This document shows, in pieces, positions 1 through 8,021 of a stretch of 64,000 nucleotides of DNA. Every line of letters begins with the position of its first letter. Position 1 is the stretch's first letter. The notes beneath the pieces are model-generated. The model was not told where the DNA came from and ran no database searches. It saw only the letters and a list, made by a program, of their open reading frames with translations. Origin of the DNA: Candidatus Acididesulfobacter guangdongensis (lineage in GTDB: Bacteria > SZUA-79 > Acidulodesulfobacterales > Acidulodesulfobacteraceae); contig SGBC01000001.1 in assembly GCA_004195045.1 (NCBI GenBank), forward strand, positions 248,001 through 312,000, in the 5' to 3' direction. The position numbers and the translations under genes were made by a program.

Positions 1-2587
1 AAAAATAACCCAAGTCCCGCAATTTATCCATTACAGCCTCTTTTTCTTTTGAGCGCCCTGCCCTTTCCGCTTCGTCCGCTGATTTTGCCTTATGCGTACA
101 CGGCATACAGTCAATTGACCTGTACCCTTGTTCATAAAGACTGCAATAAGGCAGATTATACAATTTTATATAATCCCAAATATCGTTTTCGGTAAAATGC
201 AATATAGGATGTATCCTGTAATGGTGCGGATGCTCTCTTTTAGAAAAATAAATTTCGCCGGCACGGGATTCCTGCTCATCTTTTCTAATGCCCGTCATTA
301 AACCTTTCAAACCCAATTCCTTTATGGCATTTTTCAGAGGAACGGTTTTCAGCAGATTGCAGCATACTTGCCTGTCTGCTGCAATAGTTACAGTTCTTAA
401 GGCTTCTTTATTAGAATAAACATTCAAATCAAAATTCCAGTCTTTTTTTAATTTATTCATAAACTCTACAATCTCGGGAAATTCGCAGCTGGTATCGACA
501 GTTATTATTTTAAAAGGAATTACTCCGTTATAAGCCCTTCTGACTAAATCAAGCAATACGGTTGAGTCCTTTCCGCCGGTGAACGCAATGCCGATTTTAT
601 CTCCGTATCTGTTATGTGCTTCCTTGATAATTTCAGTGCTGAATAGAATTTTTGATTTAAGCAGTTCAATTTTCTTTTTATTATTTATTATATTAATATC
701 ATTATTATCATCATTAATGCTGTCTTTATTGCTATCTTTGCCTTGACCGTTGCTATTGCTATTACCGCTGCCGCGTCCGCCCGTGTTCCCCTGTCTTGAG
801 GAAACATTGCCGCTCCTATTGCCGTTACTGCCGTCACTTTTATCCTTTTTATCCTTCACTTTTGTTGAACTATTGTCAAAATATGTAAAAACATCGGCAG
901 TATCAACAGATTTGCTTTTTAATTCATTTAAAAATTTTAGATTTTCATTAACATCCGCCAAATTCATATTTGCAAAAACAAGCGGTTTTTCTTCGAACGG
1001 GTCAATCGCTAAATCGTAATAATAATTTAACGGTCTGTTATAATCGACTGACCCCATAACAGTTTTGTAAACATCCGCTCTTGAACCTGCTTTTGTCTTC
1101 AGAAGATTTAAAAAATATAAATATTCGGCTTTGACTATCCGTTTTCTCAATACAAAACTGAAGAGCCATATAATATAATCTTCATTGCTGATACTCAAAT
1201 TTTCTATCATTTTCTGCACTTCTTCCTTCGTCATTCTTTCAGGCATAAAAATATATTTTTTATCTTTAGTTCTTATTGCCTGCTGAGCCAGAAAATATTT
1301 ATCTCTAATTGAAGCGCCCTGTTTGTTTCTGTCAAATTCATTGGACGCAAACTGCATGACTTCGTTATACATATTCTGAATGAAATATTCGGAATAGCAG
1401 CTTTGCCTTTCCTCGAACAGCAGCACTCCGTCTATTTCTGCATTTTTTGATATTGCCTCATCGCTAAAATTTTTATTTTTATCTAATTCCGACAAAGAAA
1501 TCAATGAAGGATAAATATCGGTTATAGAAACAAGTTTATCATATGTTTTATTTTCTATTCCGGGCGCATGAAAAATCAGAGGAACGTGAATTACTTCATC
1601 GAACAATTCACCCATATGCCCAAACACCGGCTTATCGATAAGCGATATCCTGCCTTCTCCGTGATCTGAAAAAATAGCGTATATATTATCTTCGTTAAAA
1701 TAATTTAATTCTTTCAATGAATCATAAATTAATTTAAATCTCCCTGCGTCAAATTTGTTTACGCCGTAAATATACGGCGGCAGCATAAAACTCTGACCGA
1801 AATGCGTTGCGGTACTGAAACTGTTCCATAGAGCGTACGGGTCGTTTTTAGGCATCTGTATATTATACAGATTTGACATATTTTTCATAAATTCAAAATA
1901 GTCGTCGTTATAGTGCATATCAGGAGGACATTCTGAAAAAATATAAGGCTCATGTATATCGAATACATGAATAAACGCAAAAACTTTCTCCTCTTTAAAG
2001 CTGTCCAAAAGTTTTATAAATTCGGTAAAATTTTTATCAAAAACATAATCAAAGCCTTTCGTCATGCCCATAGGACCGAAAAGCCCGAATACATCGGAAT
2101 AAAAAACAGTTTTGTATCCGTTGTTTTTATATATTTCGGCAATAGTCAGGCATTCATCGTTTAATCTCTTATAAAAAAAGGGTCTGATGCCGTGTTTTGG
2201 CGGGTAGAGTCCGGTAAATAAAGAAGCATGAGCCGGCGGCGTATAGCTGCATGTCGAAAAACAGTTGGTAAAAACAGCTGAATTTGATGCAGCTTCGTCT
2301 AAGTTGCGCGTATCGACAAGTTTATCATAGTAATAATGTTTTAAATGAGCTTTATCGCTTACATAGCCGACGCAATCATATCTGAGGTTATCTATCGACA
2401 TTAGCAAAACTTTATTATTATTGCCATTATTACCATTATTGCTATTACTGATATTATTGCTATTACTGATATTACTGATATTACTGATATTACTGATATT
2501 GCTGATATTACAGCTATTGCTGCTATTACTGATATTACTGCCATTACTATTAAAAGTTTTGCGGCTGTTTAAATTATTATCGTCCAT
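1..2587 (-). CDS. Sulfatase-fold / (P)APS reductase-like fusion protein (stop codon just outside window)
   Basis: One uninterrupted frame of 862 codons runs from ATG at 2587 to the window edge, where only the first base (T) of the next codon is visible. Residues 11-58 are Asn/Ser/Ile-rich and encoded by a 9-bp repeat. From about 59 to 440 lies an alkaline-phosphatase/sulfatase fold: metal-binding SIDNLRYD (D66), the TPPAHASLFTGLYP motif with Thr116 at the nucleophile position, and a later SDHGEGR metal motif. About 440-590 is uncharacterised and about 590-645 is a Ser/Gly/Asn/Lys linker. About 645-862 is a PP-loop CysH/CysD-type domain: TGGKDS (670-675), Cys742-Cys743, and Cys827-x2-Cys830 within YRSIDCMPCT. 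CC plus CxxC is the 4Fe-4S ligand set of assimilatory APS reductases. The GYF ending resembles CysD, so the protein is probably complete at 862 residues. An AAGG Shine-Dalgarno overlaps the rfbA stop. Domain identities are well supported; the joint function is unknown. Confidence 0.8.
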   Translation of the reverse strand, partial: MDDNNLNSRKTFNSNGSNISNSSNSCNISNISNISNISNISNSNNISNSNNGNNGNNNKVLLMSIDNLRYDCVGYVSDKAHLKHYYYDKLVDTRNLDEAASNSAVFTNCFSTCSYTPPAHASLFTGLYPPKHGIRPFFYKRLNDECLTIAEIYKNNGYKTVFYSDVFGLFGPMGMTKGFDYVFDKNFTEFIKLLDSFKEEKVFAFIHVFDIHEPYIFSECPPDMHYNDDYFEFMKNMSNLYNIQMPKNDPYALWNSFSTATHFGQSFMLPPYIYGVNKFDAGRFKLIYDSLKELNYFNEDNIYAIFSDHGEGRISLIDKPVFGHMGELFDEVIHVPLIFHAPGIENKTYDKLVSITDIYPSLISLSELDKNKNFSDEAISKNAEIDGVLLFEERQSCYSEYFIQNMYNEVMQFASNEFDRNKQGASIRDKYFLAQQAIRTKDKKYIFMPERMTKEEVQKMIENLSISNEDYIIWLFSFVLRKRIVKAEYLYFLNLLKTKAGSRADVYKTVMGSVDYNRPLNYYYDLAIDPFEEKPLVFANMNLADVNENLKFLNELKSKSVDTADVFTYFDNSSTKVKDKKDKSDGSNGNRSGNVSSRQGNTGGRGSGNSNSNGQGKDSNKDSINDDNNDINIINNKKKIELLKSKILFSTEIIKEAHNRYGDKIGIAFTGGKDSTVLLDLVRRAYNGVIPFKIITVDTSCEFPEIVEFMNKLKKDWNFDLNVYSNKEALRTVTIAADRQVCCNLLKTVPLKNAIKELGLKGLMTGIRKDEQESRAGEIYFSKREHPHHYRIHPILHFTENDIWDYIKLYNLPYCSLYEQGYRSIDCMPCTHKAKSADEAERAGRSKEKEAVMDKLRDLGYF
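2440..2550. repeat. 9-bp in-frame minisatellite
   Basis: Imperfect tandem copies of ATTACTGAT (plus strand) lie inside the 5' end of the sulfatase-fold fusion gene. They encode repeated Asn-Ile-Ser units before the folded domain. The period is a multiple of three, so copy-number changes keep the frame. Confidence 0.85.
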
Positions 2588-2597
2588 GATCTTTACC

Positions 2598-3479
2598 TTA
2601 AGCTAAATCTTTTATAATTTTCAGCAGATATTTTCCATAATTTCCCTTACTATAGGTATCTGCCGCCTTTTTTAAACCTTTAATATCTATATAACCCATT
2701 CTATACGCTATTTCTTCTATACATCCTATTTTAAGACCCTGTCTTTTTTCCATCATCGCTATAAATTCCGACGCGTCAAGGAGACTTTCAGGAGTACCGG
2801 TGTCCAACCATGCATGACCGCGGCCGAGCTGAAAAGCTTTCAATTTTTTATTTTTCAGGTAAACATTGTTTACGTCGGTTATTTCGAGTTCGCCCCGTTT
2901 AGACGGTTTAATATTTTTAGCGATTTCTACTACGCTGTTATCGTAGAAATAAATCCCTGTAACTGCATAATTAGATTTTGGTTCTTGAGGTTTTTCTTCA
3001 ATGGATGTAACGAAACCGTCTTCGTCTAATTCTATAACGCCGTACCTTTGCGGGTCTTCGACATAGTATGTGAATATCGCGCCGCCTTTTTCATTCTGAA
3101 CAGTTTTCTTTGCTTTATCAAAAAGCGCCGGCAATCCGTGTCCGTAAAATATATTGTCTCCTAATATAAGACAGACGTCGTCGTTTCCTATAAACTCCTC
3201 GCCTATTATAAAAGCCTGGGCAAGACCTCCCGGTTCAGGCTGCTCTTTATAAGAAATGTTTAAGCCTACAGAGGCTCCGTCATTAAATATTGTTTTAAAT
3301 TTAGGCACATCTTCAGGATTGGATATAACGAGTATATCTGTAATGCCGGAAAGCATAAGAGAAGATAACGGATAATAAATCATAGGTTTATCGTATACAG
3401 GAAGAAGCTGTTTGCATACGCTTAAAGTAATAGGATAAAGCCGTGTGCCGCTTCCTCCCGCAAGAATAATACCCTTCAT
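2598..3479 (-). CDS. rfbA: Glucose-1-phosphate thymidylyltransferase
   Basis: 293 residues, the usual length for RfbA/RmlA. The enzyme joins dTTP and glucose 1-phosphate to give dTDP-glucose, the first step to dTDP-L-rhamnose and other deoxysugars of surface polysaccharides. The nucleotide-binding signature [11 protein letters not shown] is at residues 8-18, followed by [24 protein letters not shown], and the [20 protein letters not shown] sugar-binding segment. It is cytoplasmic with no membrane segment. The gene following in transcription starts 10 bases after this stop with its ribosome-binding site over the rfbA stop, so the two are co-translated. rfbBCD are not in the window, so the final sugar cannot be inferred. 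RmlA-type thymidylyltransferase is more likely than a uridylyltransferase because of the [11 protein letters not shown] motif. Confidence 0.93.
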
Positions 3480-4579: not shown

Positions 4580-4715
4580 AAATTTATTTAAAAAAAAATA
4601 TACGATTTTCTACCTATAATGAAATTTATAATTATAAAGTCTTTAAAGCAAAAAATATACGATTTTCAATAAGAAAATTTATAATACCAAAATAATAAAT
4701 TTTTTAAAGCAAAAT
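4580..4715. repeat. Diverged tandem duplication beside the hemW 3' end
   Basis: AAAAAATATACGATTTTC occurs twice (about 4589 and 4651), each copy followed about 40 bases on by TTTAAAGCAAAA (about 4642 and 4704). The second copy runs to the 3' end of hemW, so the unit may have arisen by duplication of the gene end. Confidence 0.5.
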
Positions 4716-6365
4716 TTTGGAAAAAATTTCTGAAGATACAAGCATGCCTTTTAACGTTAATCTCAAATAATGCCGCATATGCAGCCTATCTCCGGTTGCG
4801 TATATTTCTGCAAATCCTGCTTTTATAAGTTCGTCTATTATCTTTCTGTCTGCATACTTATATATAATTTTGACATTTATACCTTTGTACGTTCTTAATG
4901 ATAAAAAAAATTTTTCATTAATTATATTTTTTTTCGTTAAAATTTCCTCGTCGGTCTTGAACTCTTCAATTTTATATTTTATTAATTTATTTTTTTTGTT
5001 TTCTGATTGCAGTATTTTTTTTTCAAAATTTGAAATTTTATTGATATATTCAATCAGATTCGGTTTGTTTGTTATTCTGATTTCTAATTTTTTAATATCT
5101 CTGTTATTACTGCGATAATAATAATTATTATTATCCATATCGCCTCTATTATCGTCAATATTACGGCTGCTGCTGTTATTATCGGCATTATTATGTACGG
5201 AACAATTTACCGTCTGTTTTATAAATGAAGAGGCTGCAGGTCCCAACCCTATATATTCGCCTCTTTCCCAGTAATTTATGTTGTGTTTGCTTTCAAATCC
5301 GTTTAATGCAAAATTAGAAATTTCATAATGTTTATATCCGCTACTGCTAAATTCTTCCGAGGCTGTTATATAAAAATCAGCCAGCTCGTCTTCTTTTCTT
5401 TCTTTGTATTCATTATGTTCATTTTCATTATATTCATTTTTGCTATGTTCATATTTATTATGTTCATTTTCATTATGTTCATTTTTACTATATTCATTTT
5501 TACTATGTTCATATTTATTACGTTCATTTCCATTATGTTCATTTTCATTATTTTCGCGGTTTTCTTCAGACCGCATACGTAATTTTTTTAAATTTTTATA
5601 AAATTTAGAACCTTTTTCTATGCTTAAAATGTACGCCGATATGTGTTCCGGTCGGATAGATATTAAATAATCTATATCTTTCTGCAAAATTTCTGCCGTT
5701 TGACCCGGAAGTCCAAGCATTAAATCAAGCGATATATTATTAAAACCGCATTTTCTTGAGTCGTTCACGCAACGCAAAATATCGTCTGACGAATGCAGCC
5801 TGCCTGCTATTTTTAAAACATTATCGTTGAAACTTTGCGCCCCTATAGACAAACGGTTTATGCCTAAACTGCGCAAACTTTTTAATTTATCGAGGACGGC
5901 GCTTTCAGGATTTACTTCTACGGTAATTTCAGGATTATCGGAGACTGCAAATGTTTTATAAATATTATTAATTATTTCGTCAAAAAAATTAATATTCATA
6001 ACGGACGGCGTACCTCCGCCGAAATAAATAGTTTTAACAATTCTGCTATGCGTGAAGTTGTTGTTTAAATTATATTTTTCCGATATAATTTTTAATTCTT
6101 TTATTAAAGATTGTAAGTATATGTCATGTATATTATTATAACTATTATAATGGATATTATCTGGGCTATTATCAGGACTATTATCATGACCATGATGATG
6201 ATAATAATTATGGCTGCGGTTAGGGCTGCGATGCGTATTATATATTTTCTGCAATTCAGCGCCGTTAATATTTTCTGGATTTATTGAATAAAAATTGCAA
6301 TAATTACACTTAGACTTGCAAAACGGCGTATGAATATAAATAGATAAATTATTATTATTTTTCAT
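4704..6365 (-). CDS. hemW: Radical SAM heme chaperone HemW (expanded)
   Basis: 553 residues against about 380 for typical HemW. The radical SAM cluster motif Cys16-x3-Cys20-x2-Cys23 is followed by Asn-Phe, then GGGTPS and SIGAQSFNDNVLK. These match the HemW/CPDH family, which binds heme and delivers it to respiratory proteins. HemN proper has a longer N-terminus before the cluster, so the heme chaperone is preferred over coproporphyrinogen dehydrogenase. The extra length comes from low-complexity insertions: a His/Asn/Ser-rich segment (about residues 36-75), a 10-unit repeat of Glu/His/Asn/Lys (about 272-321) and an Asn-rich stretch near 390-410. All lie between conserved blocks and keep the frame. 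No clear Shine-Dalgarno precedes the start. Heme delivery fits a genome with complex I and a predicted heme-type chemoreceptor. Confidence 0.85.
   Translation of the reverse strand: MKNNNNLSIYIHTPFCKSKCNYCNFYSINPENINGAELQKIYNTHRSPNRSHNYYHHHGHDNSPDNSPDNIHYNSYNNIHDIYLQSLIKELKIISEKYNLNNNFTHSRIVKTIYFGGGTPSVMNINFFDEIINNIYKTFAVSDNPEITVEVNPESAVLDKLKSLRSLGINRLSIGAQSFNDNVLKIAGRLHSSDDILRCVNDSRKCGFNNISLDLMLGLPGQTAEILQKDIDYLISIRPEHISAYILSIEKGSKFYKNLKKLRMRSEENRENNENEHNGNERNKYEHSKNEYSKNEHNENEHNKYEHSKNEYNENEHNEYKERKEDELADFYITASEEFSSSGYKHYEISNFALNGFESKHNINYWERGEYIGLGPAASSFIKQTVNCSVHNNADNNSSSRNIDDNRGDMDNNNYYYRSNNRDIKKLEIRITNKPNLIEYINKISNFEKKILQSENKKNKLIKYKIEEFKTDEEILTKKNIINEKFFLSLRTYKGINVKIIYKYADRKIIDELIKAGFAEIYATGDRLHMRHYLRLTLKGMLVSSEIFSKILL
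5403..5552. repeat. 15-bp x 10 coding minisatellite in hemW
   Basis: Ten consecutive 15-bp units related to TTCATTTTCATTATG run without interruption and encode five-residue units rich in Glu, Asn, His and Lys. The period is in frame, so expansion or contraction would only lengthen or shorten a loop. Confidence 0.9.
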
Positions 6366-6572: not shown

Positions 6573-8021
6573 ATGAAACAGGAAAAACAGATAAAAACTA
6601 TAAATATACTGCATATTGACAGTTATGACAAATACGGCGGAGCGCAGAAGAGCACTGTAAATACCTTAAAGGCAATAAAATTAACGCTGGAATTATCACG
6701 GCAGAATTCAAATTTAAATTCGGCTGCATATAGAAATAACCCCTATTTGACGAAAGAAACCGATTTGTATAATAATTGCGGCGGCAGCACAAAACACAAC
6801 GGCTGCGCCCGCAGTCAAAATTCAAAATATAATTTTAATTTCTATGTAATACATAATAATAATAAAATTTATGAAGAAGAACTTAATAATCTTAATATTC
6901 CAAACTTTTCAATAAAAATGAAAAATTTCGGCGATATCGCCGCAATTATAAAGATATCAAAATTTTTAATAAAATATAAAATAAATATAGTTATTTTTCA
7001 TTCATCAAGGGACCATATGCTAGGCGGCATAGCATGTTTTTTATCCGGCAGAAAAATAATAAAAATTTTAACAAGACACGTTGCCTATAATGTAAGCTTT
7101 TTAAAAGGTTTTCTGATATATCATCTTTTAACTGACCATTATATCGCAATTTCAAAATATATTAAAAATATTTTAATTGACGATCTAAAAATAAATCAGG
7201 ACAAGATAACCGTCATATACGATATCAGATTTGCAGATGATATAGCAGATACCGCAAATACCGCAGCTATTAATGCCGGTAAATATGCAGATAAAGATAT
7301 GGATAGAGATAAAATTAAATATGCTGATAAAGATATAAATATGGAAATGGGTATGGATAAGTATAGAGACAAAACAGATACGGTCGGTATTTGTACTGAT
7401 AAATATAGCGATAAAACAGATGAAATAAAAAATCATGTAAAAAAAGAATTAAATATTCCTAAAGAAATGAAAATTGTTTCAATTATAGGAAGACTATCAA
7501 ATGAAAAAGGACACATGACTTTTTTAAATGCGGCAAGATTTATAATCAAAAAAAGAAAAGATATAAAATTTATGATTGTCGGCGACGGCGATTTATTTAA
7601 TGATATTGAAGAATTTATAACGGATAACAAATTAAGCGATTATATTATAATGACCGGATTTAAAAAAAATGTTGAACGGTATATTGAAGCCAGCGACTTG
7701 ATTATAGTCCCTTCGGGATTAGAAGGATTGGGCGGAATTATAGTAGAATCTTGCATGCGTAAAAAAGCTGTTATAGCTTCAAACGTAGGAGGAATTCCTG
7801 AAATCATAGATAACAGATTAACCGGCATCCTGTTTGAAAAAGATAATTTTCAAGAGCTTGCCGATAAAATCCTTAATGTTATAGACGATAAAAAGATGCT
7901 TAATAAACTTGGCAATAATTGCTACAAAAAAATAATAGACGAATTTAATCCTTATAGGCTTGCAGAAGAAAATATCGGCCTTTATCTCAGGCTGTTAAAA
8001 CTCGAAACTTTTAATAGATAG
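6573..8021 (+). CDS. Family 4 glycosyltransferase
   Basis: 482 residues with a GT-B fold and GT4 (group 1) architecture. The N-terminal acceptor domain opens with INILHIDSYDKYGGAQKS. The C-terminal nucleotide-sugar domain carries SIIGRLSNEKGH, MIVGDGDL, and SGLEGLGGIIVESCMRKKAVIASNVGGIPEII, which contains the E-x7-E donor-binding element. It transfers a sugar from an activated donor to a growing glycan, probably at the inner face of the cytoplasmic membrane; donor and acceptor cannot be read from sequence. Two low-complexity insertions are present: about residues 55-85 (Asn/Cys/Gly-rich) and about 235-285 (Asp/Lys/Tyr/Met repeats, with KYADKD occurring twice). It is not in an evident polysaccharide cluster, as hemW is divergent and the next gene is 230 bases away. 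Confidence 0.85.
   Translation: MKQEKQIKTINILHIDSYDKYGGAQKSTVNTLKAIKLTLELSRQNSNLNSAAYRNNPYLTKETDLYNNCGGSTKHNGCARSQNSKYNFNFYVIHNNNKIYEEELNNLNIPNFSIKMKNFGDIAAIIKISKFLIKYKINIVIFHSSRDHMLGGIACFLSGRKIIKILTRHVAYNVSFLKGFLIYHLLTDHYIAISKYIKNILIDDLKINQDKITVIYDIRFADDIADTANTAAINAGKYADKDMDRDKIKYADKDINMEMGMDKYRDKTDTVGICTDKYSDKTDEIKNHVKKELNIPKEMKIVSIIGRLSNEKGHMTFLNAARFIIKKRKDIKFMIVGDGDLFNDIEEFITDNKLSDYIIMTGFKKNVERYIEASDLIIVPSGLEGLGGIIVESCMRKKAVIASNVGGIPEIIDNRLTGILFEKDNFQELADKILNVIDDKKMLNKLGNNCYKKIIDEFNPYRLAEENIGLYLRLLKLETFNR

Follow-up and report, generated by a model that had tools for sequence, protein, structure and literature searches.

Which reaction is catalyzed by a protein that joins a sulfatase-like domain to a PAPS reductase-like domain, and what is its substrate? 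The question is raised by a gene of Candidatus Acididesulfobacter guangdongensis at the edge of the 64,000-nucleotide stretch of DNA analyzed as a whole (the window). An earlier note on this DNA had read the gene as a fusion of a sulfatase-fold domain with a (P)APS reductase-like domain and had taken its position beside rfbA as a hint of surface-sugar modification. In the current study, we characterized both domains, their relatives and the loci that carry them.

Architecture of the fused gene

The single frame with both folds was borne out (Table 1). Pfam placed Sulfatase on residues 85-365 (E 1.8e-16) and PAPS_reduct (PF01507) on residues 667-833 (E 9e-44), and the AlphaFold2 model (mean pLDDT 81.7) comprises two domains predicted with confidence and a disordered stretch at residues 569-632. 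The linker, which had been expected at about 650-900 of the window, was found there (residues ~566-637, window ~677-892). The DUF4214 match between the two domains is weak here and reaches E<0.01 in 8 of 12 aligned relatives, while the Ser/Asn-repeat N-terminus is missing from most of them. The genome contains only one match to the full-length fused protein, which is also its sole PF01507 protein.

Table 1. Features of the fused gene and its upstream neighbor, in window coordinates.
Feature	Position	Strand	Basis or remark
Fused gene, single 862-codon frame	2..2587	-	TGA stop just beyond window edge
Residues 1-56, disordered low-complexity Ser/Asn-repeat N-terminus	2420..2587	-	AlphaFold2, alignment
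Residues 57-420, alkaline-phosphatase-superfamily domain (PF00884, S1-sulfatase-like)	1328..2419	-	Pfam, AlphaFold2, Foldseek
T116, formylglycine-cysteine position of sulfatases	2240..2242	-	Alignment
Residues 421-565, segment with DUF4214-like match	893..1327	-	Pfam, weak here
Residues 566-637, disordered fast-evolving linker	677..892	-	AlphaFold2, dN/dS 0.24-0.42
Residues 638-862, PF01507 PP-loop domain, CysD-like (TGGKDS, GxRxDExxxRxxE, ERxGR, C-terminal LRxLGYF)	2..676	-	Pfam, alignment, tree
Residues 670-675, TGGKDS PP-loop	563..580	-	Alignment
Residues 742-743, CC pair, possible metal/Fe-S ligands	359..364	-	Alignment
Residues 827-830, CxxC, possible metal/Fe-S ligands	98..109	-	Alignment
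rfbA-like glucose-1-phosphate thymidylyltransferase	2598..3479	-	10 nt upstream of fused gene, same strand

The N-terminus and linker (window 2420-2587 and 677-892) are low-complexity polar insertions made of short DNA repeats. Similar insertions occur at window 4704-6365 and 6573-8021, in a HemW-like gene and a glycosyltransferase gene, and such insertions vary between close species. Just past the gene (L002 11960-12010), its last codons and stop (GTTATTTTTGACC) are imperfectly repeated directly 3' of the stop codon.

Conservation and distribution of the fusion

The same two-domain order was found in 17 copies, one truncated at a contig end, from 14 genomes of the same GTDB family, at 44-93% identity, and some genomes hold two or three copies. 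Purifying selection is strong on both domains (dN/dS 0.04-0.11) and relaxed on the linker (0.24-0.42). Conservation of the fusion in 14 genomes, together with the low dN/dS, rules out an assembly join or sequencing error in the linker. The earlier note had reasoned that the fusion would be in doubt if close relatives always encoded two genes. No split version was found in the family, where all partial copies are cut by contig ends, and two-gene versions occur in other phyla only.

A scan of GTDB contigs identified one relative as Candidatus Acididesulfobacter. It also revealed fused genes in Desulfovirgula thermocuniculi (Firmicutes) and, in divergent form with a PP-loop degenerated to TREKET, in a deltaproteobacterial MAG. 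Tree support is weak on whether the Desulfovirgula fusion arose independently. The deltaproteobacterial MAG carries a tandem pair (L068 9989-13644), one copy having TREKET and no cysteines and the other having no C-terminal domain, which indicates that the N-terminal domain can persist without PP-loop activity. A fused copy of 753 aa also occurs on a 63.9-kb phage contig (IMGVR_UViG_3300033990_000083; L090 5980-8238, the same interval as L134 3434-5692), where it directly adjoins a tail sheath gene; baseplate and clamp-loader genes are present on the same contig. This copy nests within the host clade of the tree and is probably an auxiliary gene taken from the host. In agreement with the earlier note, which knew of no described enzyme with such an architecture, no description of the fusion or of the domain pairing was found in the literature searched, and both the fusion and its two-gene counterpart appear to be undescribed there.

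The N-terminal domain

S1 sulfatases were the best Foldseek matches of the N-terminal domain, and D66, T116, H120, H212, D308, H309, and H324 are conserved in the fused members. These include the metal ligands D66, D308, and H309, residue roles being taken from the active site of the Enterococcus faecium arylsulfatase (PMC12421950). The domain thus shares the fold and metal-site residues of type I formylglycine sulfatases (PF00884/S1), but differs from them at the catalytic center. The C/S-x-P/A-x-R formylglycine motif is absent from the 27 aligned rows, and T116-x-x-x-H120 occupies its place, with Thr at position 116 in 27/27 rows and His at position 120 in 26/27. The formylglycine Cys, the motif Arg, and the site Lys are replaced by T116, H120, and H324 in nearly all rows. 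Since formylglycine derives from Cys or Ser, the domain is not expected to work by the classical sulfatase mechanism, and the label "sulfatase" is supported for its fold but not for its chemistry. The predicted Thr nucleophile instead points to phosphoryl-type transfer or hydrolysis. In most relatives the protein opens with the first beta strand and no signal peptide is apparent, suggesting that the fused enzyme is cytoplasmic, a further difference from the formylglycine sulfatases.

The C-terminal domain

TGGKDS, CC, and CxxC are all present, as had been reported, and are invariant among the fused relatives. The earlier note took the full CC...CxxC set as that of assimilatory APS reductases. 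The cysteines are there, but the set also occurs in many of the CysD-type proteins sampled and is missing from the Patescibacteria members, so it is not evidence of a reductase and was rejected as proof of one. Judging from the conserved cysteines, the domain may nevertheless hold an Fe-S cluster. Two PF01507 proteins elsewhere (L137 9052-9894 and L131 9189-10046) have TGGKDS without the cysteines.

Other sites separate the domain from CysH, the assimilatory APS/PAPS reductase. In the PF01507 alignment, CysH is marked by a degenerate PP-loop, RxxQ, and ECGLH, whereas CysD and the fused-type family have GKDS, RxDE, and a C-terminal GYF/GYM; the domain sides with CysD at GKDS, RxDE, E778, R791, and the GY(F/M) tail. 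The ECGLH cysteine is absent throughout its family and present in 9/11 rows of the CysH clade. In an 80-row tree of the PF01507 domain, CysH formed one clade (100/99) and CysD another (100/100), with the C-terminal domain outside the CysH clade; fused domains of the Acidulodesulfobacterales formed a clade of their own (100/99), with a stand-alone family of ~228 aa and the Patescibacteria set close by. With its intact PP-loop, missing ECGLH cysteine, CysD-like sites, and position in the tree, the domain cannot keep the label "(P)APS reductase", even though it shares with CysH the fold, the Pfam family, CC...CxxC, and three basic positions. The latter (K747, R842, and R845) correspond in the alignment to one lysine and two arginines in the APS reductase 2goy, residues that we take to bind the sulfate of APS, and are kept in every full-length non-degenerate member. 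Nothing on the substrate residues of APS reductase was found in the literature searched.

The likeness to CysD, the small subunit of sulfate adenylyltransferase (NodP in rhizobia), extends over GKDS, RxDExxxRxxE, ERxGR, the C-terminal GY(F/M), and the cysteine set, and makes adenylyltransferase activity plausible. Differences are nonetheless clear: the domain has TGGKDS rather than S(I/V)GKDS, is shorter (~225 aa), forms a separate clade, and has an alkaline-phosphatase-superfamily enzyme, either fused or as a separate protein, as its partner instead of CysN. Its top NCBIfam score was to CysD, at 132 bits and under the 195 cut-off, and TIGR02039 gave 92 bits, under a cut-off of 397. No CysN adjoins the fused gene and none in its genome exceeds the CysN cut-off, where only matches to TIGR02034 near or over the cut-off were counted, as this model cross-matches translation GTPases.

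Genomic context and two-gene pairing

The fused gene had been described as translationally coupled to rfbA. The two genes do not overlap, and the 10-nt gap becomes 12, 45, and 66 nt in relatives, which argues for co-direction and not for tight coupling. Moreover, rfbA is adjacent in one sub-clade only (also at L032, L033, and L034). In another sub-clade the fused gene lies between recR and ffh; its companions at other loci are genes for glycosyltransferases of very large size, for type I secretion, and for S-layer-like proteins with DUF4214. The association with surface-sugar genes has held up, and from this context and the DUF4214-like segment, the modified molecule may be a surface glycoprotein.

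Outside the Acidulodesulfobacteraceae, the two halves are mostly separate genes, usually neighbors; the pair recurs in several phyla, for the most part in surface-polysaccharide loci where glycosyltransferases, sugar-nucleotide enzymes, flippases, and ABC exporters predominate. In Microgenomates and Roizmanbacteria, the PF01507 gene is 8 and 5 bp ahead of the sulfatase-like gene. An alkaline-phosphatase-superfamily gene directly adjoins the stand-alone relatives of the C-terminal domain in 11 of 18 loci (10 co-directional, 1 divergent), a fraction that is an estimate because the sample was picked by C-terminal domain similarity and loci of related genomes are not independent. Five further loci have such a gene within 4 kb, and two (L186 and L189) have none. 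By comparison, it was adjacent in none of ~30 control loci with CysD or CysH genes other than the CysD-with-CysN loci described below, most of them viewed with 1.5-kb flanks only. Families were assigned by Pfam for nine partner proteins.

A PF01663-like gene was found near CysD-with-CysN in five loci. There (L136 and L174-L177), a CysD with CC...CxxC is accompanied by CysN, and 5-16 bp separate it from a gene resembling type I phosphodiesterase/nucleotide pyrophosphatase; this is a second, unfused operon of CysD with an alkaline-phosphatase-superfamily gene. The existence of two distinct partner types argues for a functional link.

Sulfur-metabolism genes in carriers

Relatives of the C-terminal domain adjoin an ATP-sulfurylase/APS-kinase fusion (L129) and CysN (L130, L136, and L195), and a TGGKDS PF01507 gene adjoins ATP sulfurylase and a TauE-like permease (L137). 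Genome G025 has two fused genes in tandem, preceded at a distance of 62 bp by a gene for a TPR-sulfotransferase (PF13469, E 2e-35; L036 8607-15552). Genome searches found neither ATP sulfurylase nor a convincing APS kinase in G025, G065, G066, G137, G799, and G183, no convincing APS kinase in Desulfovirgula, G724, G748, G869, and others, and neither APS kinase nor Sulfotransfer_3 in Desulfovirgula, G748, G905, G799, and the Patescibacteria G065, G066, and G137, absences that are soft because many of the genomes are incomplete MAGs. With APS kinase not found in several carriers, PAPS is unlikely as a general substrate. Where ATP sulfurylase was not found, any APS would have to be made by the C-terminal domain. 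The genome of Candidatus A. guangdongensis itself has ATP sulfurylase and APS kinase, and Sulfotransfer_3 was not found in it. Ordinary sulfotransferases occur in carriers G002, G004, G018, and G025.

Discussion

The architecture described in the earlier note stands; the enzymatic labels do not. We tentatively favor an enzyme that would activate a small acidic group, with sulfate as the first candidate, and attach it to surface glycans instead of cleaving sulfate off or reducing it. The fused protein would be a single cytoplasmic two-step enzyme decorating a cell-surface glycan or glycoprotein. In the first step, the CysD-like PP-loop ATP-alpha-hydrolase of the C-terminal domain would activate an oxyanion, most likely sulfate, by moving AMP from ATP onto it, so that PPi leaves and APS, or a bound counterpart of it, is formed. 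In the second, the N-terminal domain, a putative metal-dependent transferase with a Thr nucleophile, would take the activated group directly from the first site and pass it to a sugar hydroxyl. We prefer this reading because of the intact PP-loop, the CysD-like sites, the separate CysH clade, the conserved K747, R842, and R845, the sulfur genes beside relatives, the recurrent pairing with two partner types, the carriers in which APS kinase and Sulfotransfer_3 were not found, and the glycosyltransferase and S-layer context. A known counterpart is NodPQ-NodH, which sulfates Nod factor and likewise places a CysD-type activating enzyme within a glycan-modification cluster; it differs in using a PAPS-dependent sulfotransferase and CysNC, whereas the partner here is an alkaline-phosphatase-superfamily protein.

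Several observations weigh against the proposal. CysD normally requires the GTPase CysN, and none was found for the fused form. The ATP sulfurylase and APS kinase of the organism's own genome make a second source of APS look redundant there. Transfer of sulfuryl groups from APS is not known to us for any enzyme of the alkaline phosphatase superfamily, whose Thr nucleophiles act mostly on phosphate. Ordinary sulfotransferases are present in the four carriers named above, and two loci have no alkaline-phosphatase-superfamily neighbor. A more specific form of the proposal seems rather unlikely to us, namely that the N-terminal domain is an APS-dependent, not PAPS-dependent, glycan sulfotransferase fed by the fused CysD-like domain; it would represent a new sulfotransferase class, in a two-gene module ranging from Patescibacteria to Firmicutes and borne by a phage.

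The phosphate preference of Thr nucleophiles suits another possibility, which we consider rather unlikely: the PP-loop domain would adenylylate a sugar or lipid precursor on a phosphate or carboxylate, and the Thr-type domain would make or resolve a glycan phosphodiester. The D/T/D/H site also fits phosphoryl chemistry, several partner genes belong to PF01663, and the pair-carrying Patescibacteria genomes are among those in which ATP sulfurylase and APS kinase were not found. FAD synthase, a PF01507-fold adenylyltransferase acting on FMN, shows that such a reaction is possible in this fold (PMC3546728). Non-sulfur chemistry is, however, at odds with conservation of the residues aligned with the APS reductase lysine and arginines, and with relatives that adjoin ATP sulfurylase, APS kinase, CysN, and sulfotransferase.

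It is also conceivable, but improbable, that the N-terminal domain plays an auxiliary part, hydrolyzing PPi, APS, or a by-product and thereby driving the PP-loop reaction, with the modification itself left to a separate transferase. The CysD reaction is unfavorable unless driven by another reaction, and some carriers do have separate sulfotransferases, which in G025 adjoin the fused genes. Many others, including Desulfovirgula and the genome studied here, yielded no Sulfotransfer_3 protein, and plain PPi hydrolysis would leave the placement of the pair in glycan loci unexplained.

Sulfur insertion appears equally remote; here the pair, in analogy to DndC/SspD and BREX type 4, would introduce a phosphorothioate or thio-modification into a surface glycan or lipid. 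BrxP was the top PADLOC match (E 2e-21), and the CC...CxxC set could hold an Fe-S cluster as in DndC. BREX type 4 likewise pairs an alkaline-phosphatase-superfamily protein, PglZ, with a PAPS-reductase-family PP-loop protein and has been linked to DNA phosphorothioation (PMC12839542). However, Patescibacteria members without all four cysteines still keep the pairing, no cysteine desulfurase was noticed among the neighbors viewed, and the genes lie in glycan loci and not in defense islands. A BREX or Dnd defense system as such seems unlikely: the BREX type 4 phosphorothioate defense includes BrxC, BrxL, and DUF4007, and none of the BrxC/BrxL/DUF4007/PglZ set was recognized by eye among the neighbors viewed.

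Least probable is the scheme suggested by the earlier note, in which sulfate freed by a sulfatase would, once activated, be reduced by a (P)APS reductase, tying desulfation to sulfur assimilation; the Pfam and Foldseek fold matches, the protein's status as the only PF01507 member of its genome, and the partial assimilatory sulfate pathway reported for Candidatus Acidulodesulfobacterales (PMC6776010) would suit it, but the formylglycine motif and ECGLH cysteine are absent, the PP-loop is intact, the domain falls outside CysH in the tree, and assimilatory sulfite reductase is missing from the order, which has a dissimilatory pathway (PMC6776010).

If the pair does activate sulfate or another oxyanion and transfer it to surface glycans, and needs neither APS kinase nor a classical sulfotransferase for this, it would constitute an unrecognized route of bacterial glycan modification, masked by the misleading annotations "sulfatase" and "PAPS reductase". 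Desulfovirgula thermocuniculi, a culturable strain, offers a fused protein on which activation and transfer can be tested. For the Acidulodesulfobacterales, the reported partial assimilatory sulfate pathway may in part represent surface modification.
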